Shown here: positions 442 through 25,223 of the stretch, one piece after another
Layout: every line of letters starts with the position of its first letter
How positions within the stretch are numbered: position 1 is the first letter of the stretch
Source: Acinetobacter rudis
GTDB taxonomy: Bacteria > Pseudomonadota > Gammaproteobacteria > Pseudomonadales > Moraxellaceae
Assembly: GCF_031157835.1 (NCBI RefSeq)
Contig: NZ_JAVIDR010000002.1
Span: forward strand, 248,001 to 312,000
Reading direction: 5' to 3'
DNA length: 64,000 nt
The notes under the pieces: model-generated
Told to the model about the DNA's origin: nothing
The model's database searches: none
The model's input: only the letters and a program-made list of their open reading frames with translations
Made by a program: the position numbers and the translations under genes

Positions 442-3400
442 TTATCTCCGAGGCCCAGCTGTTGTGTGCTGTCGAATAGCTTTTGACTCATCTGAACTTG
501 GTCGGCCTAGATTTCTCCAAGACTGCTTATTAACATCCTCGGCGATCTTTCGCATCCGAACCTCTAAAACTCCATCATTCCACTCAACATCAGCTGTTTG
601 ACCAGGTAATGTATGAATGTTTACTGTTGGTGCTGATTGGCTGCTTGAAAAATCGATATTCGGAAATGATCTTGTTGAACTAGATCCAACAATCCCACCA
701 TCAGAATAGCCACCGAGACTACGACCTAAACGCATCGCCTCAACATTGGCCACACCGCCCCAACGTGCAATATCATCCTGCGACCAGACGACCTCGCCCT
801 TATGCACAATACCTGCAGCAACATATTTACCGCCATCACCAGTGTAACCACCATCATAAAATCCAGCAGATACAGACTGGATACTAGAAACAATGTTTGC
901 AGTAGCAGCGGCTACAGAAGCCATAGCAGCAATGTTATAAGGGAATGGATTAGCAGATGCTTCAGCAATACCGGTTTGAATGGCCATAATAGATCGAGCA
1001 ATTGCAGCACTCTTTTCCATCACAAGCATTGTTCGATAAATACCTGAGCGCTCATCACCTGATTTACGAAGCATTTCGGTCATGGATCCAAATCCAGCCT
1101 CAGCAGAAGCAAGTTGTGAATCAAGTTGAGCTTTCTTTAAATCCTTTTCCTCTTCATCGTACTTGTCATTTAAAGCCTGTTTTGCTTGAAGATACTCTTC
1201 ATGGGCAGCAAGCAATTTAGCATTACGCTCTTCCTCGTCTTCAATGCCTAAGAAAATACCAGCACGCTGTTCAGAGTAAGCTTTATCTAAACCACCACTC
1301 TCACCATCATATTGATTTTGTAAATCACTCCACGCTGCTCGGTCTGGTTGTTTCTTGAGGAATAAATAGTTGAGACTTTCATAATGAATGTCATCAATTT
1401 TCTGATCGTTTCGATCCATCTGACTGCCAAGCGATAAATCATAAGTCTTTAACAAAGCTTCGCGAGTTTCTTTAGTAAGTTGGGTGTTTTTGGCAATCTC
1501 ATCACGTTCAAGTTGGTAACGCTTCATGACAATTTCGGTTTCTGTCATATAGAGTTCCTGAGCCTGTAAGATCTGCTGTCTTTCCTCCAACTTAACAGCC
1601 TCTATCTCAGCTTGTTTTTGACGTTCTAAAGCTTCAACTGCGTCTGCTCGTTCCTTGACACCTAATTTAGAGTTAGTACCTAAAAGCGACTTTTGCGTAT
1701 CATAGCTATTTGTAATCTGAGTAATACGATCTTTCTCAAACTCAAAATATTGATCATATTCAGCCTGTGTATCAAGAATAAGTTTCTGACGATTCTCTTG
1801 ATAGATAATGTTATTTCTATCAAGCATTTCCTTGAGTTTTTCGGGTTGATCGGCAAATGTTTTATAGATTTGCTTTATGTAGTCTTCATTCTCCATCTCC
1901 ATTTGTTTAAGTGGCGATGGTGCCAACTGAATCATCATTGCTCTCTTAGCTTCGTCAGATGATTGCTTTGCTACCACTGCATCATTTTGGAGTTTCAGGA
2001 TATCCTCAGTAGTTGGTGCTGAAAAAGTGGAGTCAATCTGGGTGCTATTATTAGCTGCTGCTGTAAATCGCTTAGCATCAGCTACATATTTTCTATTAAC
2101 AGGTCCAATCTTAGTTCCAGCTTTTACATTGCCCTCACCTGCGTGATATGCAGAAACTGCTTTTTCCCAATCACCAAACATCCCATATAAATACTTTAAA
2201 TATTTACCAGCAGCATTTGCAGATTTACTTAGATCAAAAACATCATCTCCCTGTAATCCAAATCGCTTTGCTGTTCCATCTAAAAGCTGAAATCCACCTT
2301 TTGCAGTCCCTAAACCAGGATTCATTGGACCAACGATTTTTGCATTTCCTCGCGACTCATTCATGTGAATTGCGGACAAGAGACCACTAGGTAAGCCATT
2401 TAATTTCTCAATATCAGCAAAATTATATTTAATAGCATTCTCTCGAACCTTAATAAATGCTTTAAGTTCATTCTTGTCTATCTGGTGGTATTTAGAATTA
2501 AAATCCTCCTCAAGTTTTTTCTTAGAGAAATCATCCAATTTTAACTGATCTGATGGTTTGCTTGAGCCACTACTTGCGACTTGATAGCCAGCTAATGATG
2601 GCTTACCTGTTATAGTGGATACTAAAGAATTAGTAATAACCAAAGCTGATTGTAGTGCTGTAGCATCTTTCTGAGATAAACCCTCCTTAGGATTTGGATC
2701 ATAATAACCACCAGTAATACCAGTATCGGCATAATAAGCAGCTCTTTCAGCAGACCAGCCAGCAGCAACCTTTTCTTTAATATATGCAGTCCGCCAAGCA
2801 TCCTGATTAATCTTATCAATAACCTTTTGCTGACTCTCAGAAAGATCTCTATAAGCATCGGCTTGGCTTTTTACAGCTGCAGTAGTGCTTTCATGTGCTT
2901 TCTTGATCTTTGCCTCTTTGTCAGTAAGTGTTTCAACAACTTTTTGCTGTTTAGACATTGCCTCCTTTGCTTTATTGGAAGTGCCTATATGGGTATCCAA
3001 TACATTTTTATAATCATCAGATACTGTTGTCAGGCTATTTATTTTATTGGCCAATTCTTCAGAGGTTATTTGCTGTTTATTAAAAGCCTCAATCCACCCC
3101 TCAATTAAATCTCTAGTCTCCTCATCTTTGGCTGCATATTTTGCAATAGCACCAGCATAAAGACTGATTTTTTGCTCAGCAGCCTCATATTCATTTGTAA
3201 GCTCTTTAAGTTCCTTGGTTTCCGTATACTTAAATGCGCGACGCTGAGACTCTGAAAGCTCATTGTATTTTTGTATAAGCTCATCTGTGGTCTTGCCATG
3301 CTCATCTAACGATTCGGTAGCTTTGTCAGTATTACCCTTCATCATGTAATAACCACCAGCTACTGTTGCCAGTGTAAATATCAAGCCAGCAGGGCCACCG

Positions 3401-16225: not shown

Positions 16226-16302
16226 TGGCACGCCTAACAGGATTCGAACCTGTGACCATCCACTTAGAAGGCGGATACTCTAGTCAACTGAGCTATAGGC
16301 GC
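16226..16302 (-). tRNA. tRNA-Arg (anticodon TCT), prophage-borne
   Basis: On the minus strand the sequence folds as a full cloverleaf: acceptor GCGCCTA with TAGGCGT (one G-T pair), D arm with AGCTCAGTTGA, anticodon loop CTTCTAA giving TCT, T arm with GGTTCGAATCC, discriminator G and an encoded CCA. It reads AGA. It lies inside the phage late region, not at a chromosomal boundary, so it is cargo rather than an integration site. Confidence 0.93.
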
Positions 16303-22027: not shown

Positions 22028-22519
22028 TCAGGCTTTTTCTGTTTGTAGAGCTGACAAATACTTTGCACACTCTGATTTCATTGCTTGACGCAATGCTCTA
22101 ATGTTTACTTCTAGCTGCTCTAAAATTTGATCTGTTTCATCCATTTCAGATGGTGTTACTACTCCATCTGCCATAACGTCATGAACTTGTTGATTGACTT
22201 GCCCTACATTGATATTTGTACCCAATAAAGACTCAAGGACAGTTAGGTGGTGATCCTTTCCATCTGTGTTGTTTACTGGAACCAACATAAAGCCAAGCAT
22301 GTGAGACCATACTTTTAGGCAGGCAGGGTTTTGCGTGTAAACAAGCATTGATTCAAAAGCTTTGAGGCTCGGTAAATGCGTGTCCATGTTTGGATTGGCA
22401 TAGTTCAAAACGGTTTTGTGCGAAACACCTAGAACATCAGCAACATCCTTTGGCGTGATACCAGTGGAGTGATGAATCATCTTGTGTAATGCTGTTTTTG
22501 TTTCTTTGGAAATTTCCAT
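22028..22519 (-). CDS. CII-like phage regulatory protein
   Basis: The 163-residue protein has an N-terminal helix-turn-helix (ITPKDVADVLGVSHKTVLNY) and a LPSLKAFESMLVYTQN segment resembling the phage regulatory protein CII (CP76) family. The C-terminal helix (ILEQLEVNIRALRQAM) may oligomerise. The position after the cro-like gene and before replication genes is that of lambda cII. The role in lysogeny choice is inferred. Confidence 0.65.
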   Translation of the reverse strand: MEISKETKTALHKMIHHSTGITPKDVADVLGVSHKTVLNYANPNMDTHLPSLKAFESMLVYTQNPACLKVWSHMLGFMLVPVNNTDGKDHHLTVLESLLGTNINVGQVNQQVHDVMADGVVTPSEMDETDQILEQLEVNIRALRQAMKSECAKYLSALQTEKA

Positions 22520-22587: not shown

Positions 22588-22779
22588 TTAAGCAGTTAAA
22601 GATTGGGTGTTGCGTAAGATTGGTTTTTTTCCAGCAGCTAAATCGAGAACCTGATATTCCCGAGCTAAAGGAATTTTCTCTTCTGGCCACTGGTAAACAG
22701 CGGCAGGTTTAATTTTCAATAAAGCAGCCAAGCCAACCCCATTAACCCCCAGGAGTGCACAGGCTTCCTGTTTAGTCAT
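22588..22779 (-). CDS. Cro-like repressor
   Basis: The ATG at 22779 (MTKQEACALLGVNGVGLAAL, 63 residues) follows a GGTGA site and is preferred to one at 22791. The helix-turn-helix and the PAAVYQWPEEKIPLARE turn are typical of Cro proteins that read host-style DNA-binding helix pairs. It is the first gene of the leftward early operon and faces away from cI across the operator region. Confidence 0.82.
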   Translation of the reverse strand: MTKQEACALLGVNGVGLAALLKIKPAAVYQWPEEKIPLAREYQVLDLAAGKKPILRNTQSLTA

Positions 22780-22796
22780 AAAATTCACCATAAAAG

Positions 22797-22855
22797 TAAG
22801 ATTTCTTAGTATTAAATCAAAGAATTCTTACTTTTACAAGATGTAAGATAACTTA
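22797..22855. promoter_or_regulatory. Right-operator-like region: three CI/Cro sites between cro and cI
   Basis: Three 12-bp palindromes fit TAAGA-NN-TCTTA: TAAGATTTCTTA at 22797, AAAGAATTCTTA at 22819 and TAAGATAACTTA at 22844. Each of the last two has one mismatch. They cover the start of cro transcription, the promoter spacer and the bases immediately before the cI start codon. Confidence 0.7.
22811..22839 (-). promoter_or_regulatory. Leftward early promoter for cro (PR-like)
   Basis: On the minus strand -35 TTGTAA (22839-22834), 17-base spacer, -10 TTTAAT (22816-22811). The middle operator lies within the spacer and another covers the expected transcription start. Confidence 0.62.
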
Positions 22856-22856
22856 T

Positions 22857-23537
22857 ATGAATACTGAAACTATTGGGCAGCGCATTCGCACCCTTCGACG
22901 ATCGAAAAAATTAACGCAAGCCCAGTTGGCCAAAGTTGCGGGGGTGAGTTCACCTGCTGTTACAGAGTGGGAAAAAGATAGTTACCAGCCTAAGGCTGCA
23001 TCTTTAGAAGCTATGGCTAATTTATTTGGTGTTACTACTGAATACATTCTGACTGGTAATGGTAGTTCCACCCACAAAACTCCAACCGATAGCTCTTTCA
23101 GTAATGTACGTATTAATGAAAAACCGTTAAGACGCATTCCTGTTCTGGATTTTGTACAAGCCGGAACATTTCATGAAACTGGTTATGATGGCATAAATGC
23201 CAAAGGTGAAACCTACACCACGTATGAAAATTCAAAACCTGAAAGTGTATTTTCGCTTGAGGTATCAGGTTTAAGCATGACCCCTGAATTTAACCCTGGT
23301 GATAAGCTTGTGGTGGATGCCTCAAAACTTGCTTATCCAGGATGTTATGTAATTGCTCAGAATGGCTGTCATGAGGCTACGTTTAAGAAATATCGAGCAA
23401 TTGGTTATGACGAGCATGGCCGAGAAACATTTGAATTAATCCCACTTAATCAAGACTTTCCTGTTATGGACTCCACTAAACAAGAGATCCGTATAATTGG
23501 CGTGGTTGTAGAGCATGTAAGGCAGTTTGGGAAATAA
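22857..23537 (+). CDS. CI-type phage repressor (HTH plus S24 peptidase)
   Basis: Residues 5-62 form an HTH_3 domain (TQAQLAKVAGVSSPAVTEWE). A linker leads to a LexA/S24 domain with cleavage site Ala102-Gly103 (FVQAGTF), catalytic Ser140 in GLSMTP and Lys177 in EATFKKY. It keeps the prophage silent and should self-cleave with RecA after DNA damage. No clear ribosome site precedes the ATG and an operator ends two bases before it, so the mRNA may be leaderless like lambda cI from PRM. That last point is inference. Confidence 0.93.
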   Translation: MNTETIGQRIRTLRRSKKLTQAQLAKVAGVSSPAVTEWEKDSYQPKAASLEAMANLFGVTTEYILTGNGSSTHKTPTDSSFSNVRINEKPLRRIPVLDFVQAGTFHETGYDGINAKGETYTTYENSKPESVFSLEVSGLSMTPEFNPGDKLVVDASKLAYPGCYVIAQNGCHEATFKKYRAIGYDEHGRETFELIPLNQDFPVMDSTKQEIRIIGVVVEHVRQFGK

Positions 23538-23590: not shown

Positions 23591-23596
23591 TATAAT
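23591..23596 (+). promoter_or_regulatory. Candidate -10 box of the HsdR-N-like gene
   Basis: A perfect TATAAT lies 24 bases before the ATG at 23620, with a weak -35 region, and a strong GGGGGAT ribosome site follows. It suggests expression independent of the lytic promoters. Confidence 0.4.
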
Positions 23597-23619
23597 TTAA
23601 TTAACTCATTGGGGGATAT

Positions 23620-24786
23620 ATGGAAAATTTTGTAGACAAACTCAAAGGCCATATTGAGCATGTAAAAAAAGTTGGTGCACACTGCTCAACAGAAGAAACC
23701 ACCAAGCAGGCCTTAATTTTACCGCTTTTGGATATATTGGGATTTAGTCCATATGACCCAACCAAGGTATTGGCTGAATTCGCAGCAGATTTCCCCGGAG
23801 TCAAGGCTACTGAGCGTGTTGATTATGCGTTGTATTGCAATAATCAGCCCGTGATGTTTATTGAGGCGAAATCTTATGCTTCAGATCTAACCAATCATGC
23901 TCCCCAGTTATCTAGATACTTTAATAGCAGTCTTGGTGTGACAATAGGTGCTATTACAAATGGCAGGGAGTGGAGATTTTTTACGGATCTAATTAATACC
24001 AATGTAATGGATGAACGACCATTCCTGACTATTGATTTCACCAAGTCAAAGCCAGAGGATTTGGTCCAACTTGCTGAGTTTAGACATGATAACTTTCATG
24101 CAGAGAAATTACGTTATTTTGCGGAAGAAAATCAATATATACAGCAATTTAAAACAGTGATACGGAAATGTATAAACGAGTCGGATATAGATTTTGTTCG
24201 CTATGTTGCTCAGCAGGCTACTGTACCACGCCAACTCAATACAAAGTTTCTAGAATCAATTCAGCCTTTTGTTAAACAGGCAGTTCAACAAGTTATCAGT
24301 GATACTGTTGTAAAAGGGCTATCATCACCAACAATTATCACTGCACAACCTGTTGAACAAAAGCAAAAAATTACAGAAGATCAAGAAGTTGTTGAGGTCG
24401 TAGATTATATCGTTAATCCAGACAACGAAAAAATCATTACCACCAAAGAAGAGCTGGAATTACAAAAAATTATTACAGATTTATTCCCTGGTATTGAGTT
24501 GATTTCGAAGGACACTGAGAGCTATTTCTCTATCCTTTACCAAGGGAAGAATAATCGATGGTTGTTTAGATATGATGTAAATAGAAAGCGCCCAACCATC
24601 CAATTTATTGTTCCGATGGATCAAGCTAAGCGATCGGAACTTGAAAGAGCTGGACTTGAAGTACAAGCAAATGGTTCTATCTTTTTGGATAAACCTGAAT
24701 ATATTTACCGGGCTGTTGGTGTTCTAAGAGATTCACTAGATTATTGTATAGATGACGATAACTTTAAGCGTGGACAAACATCCTAA
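23620..24786 (+). CDS. HsdR N-terminal-like nuclease-fold protein, lysogen-expressed moron
   Basis: The 388-residue protein resembles the N-terminal domain of type I restriction HsdR subunits: Glu25/26 in STEETTKQALILPLLDILGF, Asp68 in ERVDYAL, and Glu82-Ala-Lys84 in VMFIEAKSYA, a PD-(D/E)XK core without any helicase motor. The C-terminal third (ELQKIITDLFPGIELISKD, WLFRYDVNRKRPTIQFIV) looks like a separate alpha/beta domain. It lies between cI and the left operator with its own promoter and terminator, a common place for superinfection-exclusion or defence genes. That role is inferred. Confidence 0.78.
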   Translation: MENFVDKLKGHIEHVKKVGAHCSTEETTKQALILPLLDILGFSPYDPTKVLAEFAADFPGVKATERVDYALYCNNQPVMFIEAKSYASDLTNHAPQLSRYFNSSLGVTIGAITNGREWRFFTDLINTNVMDERPFLTIDFTKSKPEDLVQLAEFRHDNFHAEKLRYFAEENQYIQQFKTVIRKCINESDIDFVRYVAQQATVPRQLNTKFLESIQPFVKQAVQQVISDTVVKGLSSPTIITAQPVEQKQKITEDQEVVEVVDYIVNPDNEKIITTKEELELQKIITDLFPGIELISKDTESYFSILYQGKNNRWLFRYDVNRKRPTIQFIVPMDQAKRSELERAGLEVQANGSIFLDKPEYIYRAVGVLRDSLDYCIDDDNFKRGQTS

Positions 24787-24828: not shown

Positions 24829-24857
24829 GAACCCGCGGAATATTCTGCGGGTTTTTC
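24829..24857 (+). terminator. Terminator after the HsdR-N-like gene
   Basis: ACCCGC and GCGGGT enclose the inner palindrome GAATATTC and are followed by a T-rich tail. It isolates this gene from the rightward operon. Confidence 0.75.
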
Positions 24858-24890
24858 TTTATCAAAAAAATAAGTTACCAAAATTAAAAG

Positions 24891-24927
24891 TAAGTTTTCT
24901 TATTGACAATAAAACTAAGTTTTCTTA
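24891..24927. promoter_or_regulatory. Left-operator-like region: two identical CI sites
   Basis: TAAGTTTTCTTA occurs at 24891-24902 and 24916-24927, a 25-base step. The sites share the half-site architecture of the three near cI and flank the -35 box of a strong promoter. Confidence 0.68.
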
Positions 24928-24931
24928 TATT
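24903..24931 (+). promoter_or_regulatory. Strong rightward early promoter (PL-like)
   Basis: A perfect -35 TTGACA at 24903 is 17 bases from -10 TATATT at 24926. One operator ends just before the -35 and the other fills the spacer, so CI should shut it tightly. It should drive the genes from 25008 on. Confidence 0.78.
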
Positions 24932-25007: not shown

Positions 25008-25223
25008 ATGAAAAAACTTCACCCTAAAAGTCAAACCACGGCGATCCTTTACGATCCACCGCCATCACCACAACCTAAAGGCTCAGGTCTTGTCGCCGTG
25101 TCAGTATTCATCATTATTATGACTTTGTCCTTTGTGATGTTTAAAGGCTGCTCTGATGAAGTGGAGCGTCAAACTATTACAGCGCAGGATCATGCGGTTA
25201 TGTTGTCGGTTAAAGGAGAATAA
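25008..25223 (+). CDS. Small membrane protein, first gene of rightward operon (71 aa)
   Basis: The protein has a soluble Pro-rich N-terminus (ILYDPPPSPQPKGSG), one membrane span (about residues 28-46, LVAVSVFIIIMTLSFVMF) and a short outside tail. It is not recognised. As the first product of the PL-like promoter it is made at once after infection or induction. Confidence 0.62.
   Translation: MKKLHPKSQTTAILYDPPPSPQPKGSGLVAVSVFIIIMTLSFVMFKGCSDEVERQTITAQDHAVMLSVKGE

Follow-up and report, generated by a model that had tools for sequence, protein, structure and literature searches.

What is a restriction-type nuclease gene doing by itself between the repressor gene and the left operator of an Acinetobacter prophage? 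The gene in question is an open reading frame (ORF) for 388 amino acids (aa) on the + strand at 23620..24786 of the window, the whole 64,000-nucleotide stretch of Acinetobacter rudis DNA that was analysed, which is part of contig C22 of a 3.57 Mb genome. An earlier inspection of the letters and their translations alone, here called the sequence-only reading, had picked it out, and the ORF has proved real. The answer favoured here, and considered moderately probable, is that it encodes a single-gene, prophage-borne, restriction-like nuclease that the lysogen expresses and that presumably acts against other phages. It is favoured because the active site is kept, the gene follows cI, it behaves as an exchangeable cassette, defence systems occupy the same slot in related prophages and no conserved partner was seen.

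That the protein is HsdR-N-like and lacks a motor, as first claimed, is borne out by Pfam, where HSDR_N (E 1.4e-13, 51.6 bits with a cut-off of 25.1) and HSDR_N_2 (E 1.8e-6, 28.4 bits with a cut-off of 25) score above their cut-offs and no motor family does so, the sole motor-type match being AAA_6 at E 0.065 (12.7 bits against 25.2). An NCBIfam type I endonuclease model covers residues 52-102 only, below its cut-off, and a sequence search of the PDB with the protein gave one match, at E 0.43, taken as chance. The stretch ETTKQALILPLL at residues 26-37 is indeed the start typical of HsdR N-domains, and on its C-terminal side come Asp68 (codon 23821..23823), the E-x-K of Glu82-Ala83-Lys84 (23863..23871) and the Q96-x3-Y100 motif of HsdR/RecB-type nucleases (23905..23919), all on the + strand. 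Asp68, Glu82 and Lys84, which the sequence-only reading had taken for the core of a PD-(D/E)XK nuclease, are invariant, together with Gln96 and Tyr100 and likewise Glu25, Glu26, Thr28 and Lys29, in 58 of 58 non-redundant members, a set left after a 90% identity filter had been applied to 145 proteins that are 340-410 aa long and free of internal stops, so that shorter and broken copies are excluded. The exact pattern D-x13-E-x-K-x11-Q-x3-Y arose in 10 of 20,000 shuffles of the protein.

The AlphaFold2 model of the whole protein (mean predicted local distance difference test, pLDDT, 90.4; predicted template-modelling score, pTM, 0.60) has two domains joined via helices and a linker, residues 238-258 (24331..24393, +), that is predicted to be disordered with pLDDT below 50. 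The first of them, the nuclease domain of residues 1-172 (23620..24135, +), finds its structural matches among the nuclease domains of HsdR and of type IIG enzymes. With VIA-align the N-terminal part superimposes on DrdV, which we take to be a type IIG enzyme, with Z 12.2 (root-mean-square deviation, rmsd, 3.0 over 138 aligned residues), on the HsdR of PDB 3h1t with Z 11.8 (3.6 over 127), on BpuSI, type IIG by the title of its structure, with Z 9.9 (4.2 over 147), and on EcoR124I HsdR (2w00) with Z 8.4 (4.1 over 140). We take Asp151 and Lys167 of EcoR124I HsdR to be the matching active-site residues at matching spacing. Its Glu165 is named in the title of PDB 4xjx and its QxxxY motif is Gln179 and Tyr183 (PMC4454674), so that the Glu-to-Gln spacing is 14, the same as in the window's protein. 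What is shared with EcoR124I HsdR is accordingly the nuclease fold and the E-x-K and QxxxY motifs, while the helicase motor, the methylase-contact domain and adjoining HsdM and HsdS are not. Type IIG enzymes offer closely related solved nuclease domains and an instance of an HsdR-like nuclease in use without a motor, although the methyltransferase and target-recognition domains that they carry are missing from the window's protein. A further motor-less instance is an HsdR_N-HsdM fusion in a restriction system of Zymomonas (PMC8432527). The protein is then probably an active, motor-less HsdR-type PD-(D/E)XK nuclease with all catalytic-type residues kept, for which DNA cleavage is predicted. That it might be the subunit of a type I restriction enzyme is rejected, there being no motor and, among the window neighbours scanned with Pfam and PHROG profiles, no hsdM or hsdS.

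Keeping the active site also bears on a second suggestion of the sequence-only reading, namely that the protein mimics HsdR as an anti-restriction decoy and shields the phage from type I enzymes of the host. In its favour, two type I-like restriction-modification sets are present in the host genome: contigs C29 and C6 have frames of 1097 and 1149 aa in which HSDR_N is matched, and N6_Mtase is matched on these contigs too. The N-terminal domain also does resemble HsdR. A decoy, however, would not need catalytic residues, and because these are invariant in all 58 members an inactive one is unlikely; nothing in the protein is like the C-terminal helical part of HsdR that is presumed to contact the methylase (PMC4454674), and the gene stands after the repressor and not in an early lytic operon. 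The decoy is for these reasons regarded as very improbable.

Nor is the family undescribed, as had been suggested. The protein matches phrog_4225, annotated as 'endonuclease', at E 5e-133 and over its full length (residues 1-379 against positions 1-357 of a 357-position profile), and this is the same family. RefSeq entries call relatives 'type I restriction endonuclease', another label used in records being 'HsdR N-terminal domain-containing protein', and the protein presumably belongs to COG4748. Elsewhere COG4748 has been counted with the restriction endonucleases in Tn7 cargo (PMC8649781) and listed in prophages of Sinorhizobium (PMC12429752). The family is thus already annotated, and what is added here is evidence on residues, structure, cassette and slot: the detail is new, the kind is not.

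The position between cI and the left operator stands as first described. Upstream on the same strand is the gene for a cI-type repressor (22857..23537, +; Pfam HTH_3 plus Peptidase_S24), the stop codon of which is 82 bases before the start of the nuclease gene. Downstream, a promoter scan reports a pL-like promoter at 24903-24931 (+; TTGACA-17-TATATT), overlapped by two left operator-like 15-mers (24888-24902 and 24913-24927, +) that match the right operator-like ones beside cro (22794-22808 and 22819-22833); these make four in the window, where shuffles average 1.39 and 3 of 100 reach four. The left operon then begins with an ORF for a small protein at 25008..25223 (+). In lambda the map runs cI-rexA-rexB-pL, and the layout in the window is a mirrored version of it.

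From which promoter would the gene be read? The sequence-only reading had given it one of its own, with the hexamer TATAAT at 23591..23596 (+) as the -10 box. The promoter scan reports none there, the hexamer has no recognizable -35 element, and among the cI-to-gene spacers of eight relatives, which are A+T-rich, TATAAT recurs in one (L015), so that a sigma-70 promoter belonging to the gene is rejected. The other signals that had been noted are in place, with GGGGGAT at 23611..23617 (+) as the ribosome-binding site ahead of the ATG, and a terminator-like hairpin 3′ of the gene at 24829..24854 (+); G-rich ribosome sites also precede the gene in the eight listed relatives.

It is a pair of prophages in two other Acinetobacter genomes that suggests the answer. 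The cI proteins of G053 (locus L341) and G048 (locus L337) both match the query cI of a second type at 100%; L341 has the nuclease gene after cI, while G048 is outside the 26 of 175 genomes that match the nuclease. As far as the cI stop, the two agree in DNA sequence at 99.1% identity; L341 then has about 1.23 kb extra, and identity resumes at 90.6%, the stem-loop that is directly 3′ of cI in L337 being 3′ of the nuclease gene in L341. The gene in L341 is therefore a discrete cassette with the cI stop on one side and the stem-loop on the other, and a gene so placed should be read on the cI transcript. Most likely, by this comparison and by analogy with lambda rexAB, the nuclease gene is co-transcribed with cI in the lysogen. 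Of the original proposal, expression in the lysogen thus survives as probable, and co-transcription with cI fits better than the promoter that went with it. The presence of near-identical cI DNA with and without the gene also led to rejection of the idea that the nuclease is an obligate partner of CI.

If the gene is a cassette, what else is found in its place? Searches with peptide patterns gave no viral-contig relatives of the window's cI and left-operon proteins, so cI relatives in genomes were used; the left-operon protein is found in its own genome only among 175 of the genus. Window-type cI relatives are present in 35 of the 175 Acinetobacter genomes at E 1e-30 and the second cI type in 49 of the 175. 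The slot was surveyed at 40 loci, comprising 33 of 39 window-type places and 7 of 50 second-type places; L341 was chosen deliberately as the filled partner, and L315 and L316 are two alike places of one genome. The first ORF of at least 50 aa after cI falls into 28 sequence families, a count to be read as an upper guide to diversity, and two further loci have a very short ORF; the nuclease gene itself is in 1 of the 40, the chosen L341. For 20 of the loci, 34 proteins encoded in the slot were chosen by eye and pooled for a PADLOC scan (25 of its 113 families listed, without assignment to single proteins); 20 of them were compared with Pfam, and 10 from six loci were put to PADLOC singly. As had been supposed of this position, it does hold defence systems in related prophages. 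L319 has Lamassu (LmuA 4.1e-142, LmuB 1.8e-256), L322 has ietAS (IetA 5.3e-71, IetS 1.1e-33), and L330 has a GmrSD_N gene that scores as NsnA (1.9e-56) or PD-T4-2_A (3.2e-31), adjoined by HEPN and methyltransferase genes, while L311 has an SMEK gene as well as an ATPase whose score is that of candidate PDC-M68B. Other slot proteins have HATPase, MqsA, HipA-like, NA37 or M78/DUF4411 domains according to Pfam. Rousset et al. (2022, PMC9122126) described prophage hotspots for defence in P2 and P4, in a Bacillus prophage and in a Vibrio phage, where the hotspot is between cI and integrase. The slot that separates cI from the left operator in Acinetobacter prophages looks like a further one. The likeness to the Rousset hotspots lies in a small variable locus by cI that holds known defence systems; in the Vibrio case the anchors are cI and integrase, and in the Acinetobacter lambda-like prophages they are cI and the left operon.

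Several further contents of these slots deserve mention in their own right. Unnamed pairs of 332 and 200 aa (L310) and of 334 and 167 aa (L339), a two-gene set in L323 and L324, and L342 are candidates for new systems. Toxin-antitoxin-like genes also occur among the slots L304-L343, and a family of about 90 aa, Cas2/VapD-like by eye, recurs in 4 of the 40 loci (L305, L307, L331 and L336). In L311 an ORF that by eye resembles an IS256-type transposase, at approximately 1875-3083 of that locus, splits the SMEK gene from the AAA ATPase gene.

Does the association with a repressor extend beyond Acinetobacter? The named genomes with the closest relatives of the protein are Acinetobacter, and genes similar in length and domain order follow a repressor in phages of several phyla. 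Relatives were found in 18 phage records, some of them near-duplicates, and 11 were opened. In eight of the 11, from phages of Klebsiella, Enterococcus, Streptococcus (two), Acetoanaerobium, Terrisporobacter, Corynebacterium and Fusobacterium, a repressor or regulator, identified by its label or a note, is upstream on the same strand, directly or past peptidase genes or small ORFs; the remaining records are one without annotation, one unlabelled (Lacticaseibacillus) and one exception, from Porphyromonas, where the gene is by hicAB among structural genes. On viral contigs the best 80 of 405 loci from a first scan and the best 80 of at least 538 from a second were analysed, many of them closely related. 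Of the 158 loci with sufficient upstream DNA, 112 have a same-strand repressor in the 1.5 kb before the gene, compared with 118 of 792 tiled control ORFs, where eight repressor seeds added by eye had raised the first-scan count from 30/78 to 44/78 and the control stood at 119/973 before and 118/792 after. By group, the repressor is found at 14 of the 16 loci of close relatives (80-87% identity), 30 of the 62 other first-scan loci and 68 of the 80 second-scan loci, and in the second scan 73 of 80 have a repressor or ImmA and 66 of 73 an integrase within 5 kb downstream.

When 610 neighbouring genes of 160 loci were grouped by single linkage into 234 clusters, a repressor-type cluster, which may by this procedure hold unrelated genes, reached 103 of the 160 loci and was the only very widely shared neighbour. 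The largest besides those of repressor, ImmA and integrase, antirepressor-like by eye, is at 18 of 160. In the 14 largest clusters, which were the ones inspected and several of which are unlabelled, no methyltransferase, antitoxin, hsdM or hsdS was recognized. Because the repressor alone is widely shared and no methyltransferase or antitoxin was recognized, the nuclease protein probably acts alone, in so far as gene neighbourhoods are a guide.

A number of observations pull the other way and weigh against a defence gene expressed by lysogens. A literature search, to which subscription journals were mostly closed, found no published functional test of the family, and PADLOC models matched the nuclease protein in no family up to E 1. 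At 46 of the 158 viral-contig loci no nearby repressor was detected, and an integrase lies within 5 kb downstream at only 5 of 73 first-scan loci. Several of the loci without repressor belong to tail operons, where in some cases an antirepressor-like gene comes next; for these, expression in the lysogen is not implied. Chromosomal orphans adjoin a glutamate-symporter-like gene in several Acinetobacter and are near citrate-synthase-like and YgiQ-like genes elsewhere (names by eye), and split or truncated copies are found in Acinetobacter (G010, G018, G093, G099 and L039). In the cassette pair the stem-loop has no clear T-run, so that its identity as the cI terminator is not proven and is to be taken as a guess. 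As to the slot, 13 of the first ORFs are shorter than 100 aa, five are on the other strand and some may not be genes, hence the reading of the 28 families as an upper guide. Proteins were scanned from just 20 of the 40 loci, named PADLOC systems were obtained at three of the six scanned locus by locus, L342 had no PADLOC match, and L310 and L339 had no Pfam match.

The repressor as by far the commonest neighbour (103/160 loci) and the ImmA-type proteases at many second-scan loci also invite a different explanation, in which the protein would regulate lysogeny and not defend the cell; it might, for instance, respond to DNA damage and act in the switch alongside CI or the ImmA protease. That is rather unlikely, given that L341 and L337 have near-identical cI DNA with and without the gene, and given the copies in tail or baseplate operons and the chromosomal orphans, which have no repressor alongside. 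Two E. coli prophages illustrate the variety, as in one the gene is inside the baseplate operon (L362:6001-7161) and in another it directly follows a repressor-type gene. A branch of the family is present in 186 of 5426 complete E. coli genomes, and an orphan of this branch in a genome that was opened (L361:9001-10080) is by hicAB, between an araD/MFS/GH127 cluster and aldB.

Chromosomal copies might alternatively be taken to speak for a housekeeping nuclease of phage or host, engaged in DNA repair or recombination and with no anti-phage role. They form a clade in Acinetobacter, and the QxxxY motif is of RecB type. The presence of the gene is patchy, though, with matches in 26 of 175 Acinetobacter genomes, of which some have nothing but broken copies, in 13 of 369 genomes of the class, its own included, and in the 186 E. 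coli genomes for the one branch, and the strong link to the slot after the repressor would be odd for a repair gene; such a role appears highly improbable. In the tree, phage and chromosomal copies cluster, four changes of place being needed of which at least two are forced by starred branches. The place labels were assigned by eye, seven rows are unlabelled and long branches leave the deeper joins unsure, for which reasons no direction of transfer is claimed.

If the favoured reading of a lysogen-expressed anti-phage nuclease is right, the second half of the protein may hold the key to its specificity. The claim of a distinct C-terminal domain was followed up by predicting the structure of residues 262-388 (24403..24783, +) as a separate model, which reached pLDDT 94.0 and pTM 0.84. 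No Pfam family matches the domain even at E 5, and besides the nuclease families there are scattered matches in one or two of 67 members. The predicted fold resembles YdhG, YjbR and the C-terminal domain (CTD) of MotA. The top five Foldseek chains are all T4 MotA-CTD (E 7e-3 to 2e-2, query template-modelling score 0.41-0.46), followed by YdhG-like ones, and VIA gives Z 8.7 (rmsd 3.1, 105 aligned) and 8.4 with YdhG-like chains, 7.5 with 2kl4, 6.7 with DUF419, 6.6 with MotA, 6.4 with YjbR, and 6.1 and 5.9 with two more MotA chains before dropping to 4.2 in the next row. T274, T275, E278, D298, Y302, W314 and R317 are invariant in 67 of 67 members.

MotA-CTD has a double wing fold that sits astride the major groove and leaves space there for glucosylated hydroxymethylcytosine (PMC6755090), and YjbR-type double wing domains occur fused to nucleases and to a modified-base reader (PMC7641849). 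These likenesses are the ground for a sharper form of the favoured reading, in which the protein would be a modification-dependent, type IV-like restriction enzyme whose MotA/YjbR-like domain reads modified bases and directs the HsdR-type nuclease to them. It is in keeping with this that no methyltransferase is beside the window gene and no conserved one was recognized in the 14 largest neighbour clusters. The similarity of fold is modest, however, with Z below 9 and Foldseek E values larger than 0.001, and it gave no base-binding residues to compare. The double-wing-like prediction is found alongside a mostly negative domain: of 67 members, 62 have a net negative charge there, four are neutral and one is positive. 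This weighs against plain DNA binding and to that extent is a further point against the favoured reading. As a Z below 9 can reflect a common arrangement and the charge is mostly negative, reading of DNA by the modelled domain is a possibility and not a result, and the type IV-like form is thought doubtful. More doubtful still, and a long shot, is its boldest extension, according to which phages of several bacterial phyla would share one-gene restriction enzymes that make up a large class. In these the HsdR nuclease, freed of motor and methylase, would have been given new targets by a double-wing domain of MotA/YjbR type able to read modified DNA, so that T4-like base-modified invaders would be cut with the help of a fold that T4 itself has in a transcription factor.

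A Borreliella plasmid encodes a relative of the nuclease half (L359:1977-3140, labelled DUF5655), the C-terminal part of which shows no similarity by hhalign to the profile of the C-terminal domain; this suggests, from these sequences, that the nuclease half has been paired with different second domains.

How might the favoured single-gene nuclease work? The lysogen would make it from the cI transcript, in the manner of lambda rexAB. Some trigger for its activity is likely, because a nuclease left unchecked would be harmful to the lysogen. Motor-less HsdR-type nucleases work with a recognition part attached, as in type IIG enzymes and in Zymomonas, and here the attached part is the linker-joined C-terminal domain, which might recognize a feature of the incoming phage, be it one of its proteins or DNA that is unusual or modified. 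Such recognition would place or activate the nuclease, which would then cut the DNA of the invader or, if host DNA were cut too, abort the infection. As no methyltransferase partner travels along, the enzyme would be restriction-like and triggered by the invader, instead of being part of a system that tells self from non-self by methylation.

Other occupants of lysogeny modules are of quite different make. Genes rexAB are just downstream of lambda cI, those of P. putida RexAB have two genes between, and phage exclusion is their function (PMC12894663). With RexAB the nuclease gene shares its position after cI, on the same strand and before the left operator; RexAB, though, is a two-gene sensor and membrane channel, while the slot here has a single gene for a soluble-looking nuclease. 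The ltp and sie2009 genes of Streptococcus and Lactococcus lysogeny modules are in the same module as the nuclease gene, yet Sie/Ltp proteins are membrane- or lipid-anchored and Ltp blocks DNA injection, a mechanism other than that of a nuclease (PMC3952083, PMC7693887). Should the favoured reading be true, a family annotated 'type I restriction endonuclease' would be a widespread one-protein defence gene of prophages, and the cI-to-left-operator slot of Acinetobacter a ready place to seek more defence systems. Both expression and function can be tested directly with the cI cassette pair, and the C-terminal fold offers a concrete idea of the trigger.

As to the prophage itself, the window carries most of a temperate phage, including genes for tape measure, major head, portal and terminase subunits, a Q-like antiterminator, a replicative helicase, a helicase loader and CII-like, Cro-like and CI-like regulators. 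The cro-type gene is at 22588..22791 (-; P22_Cro, E 2.8e-7) and the cII-type gene at 22028..22519 (-; Phage_CP76), so cro and cII are transcribed leftward and cI rightward. The sole tyrosine integrase match on the contig is at C22:236266-236706, about 11 kb to the left of the window, and so the prophage probably extends beyond it. The prophage also contains a gene for tRNA-Arg(tct) at 16226-16302 (-), located between the packaging genes and that for the antiterminator.

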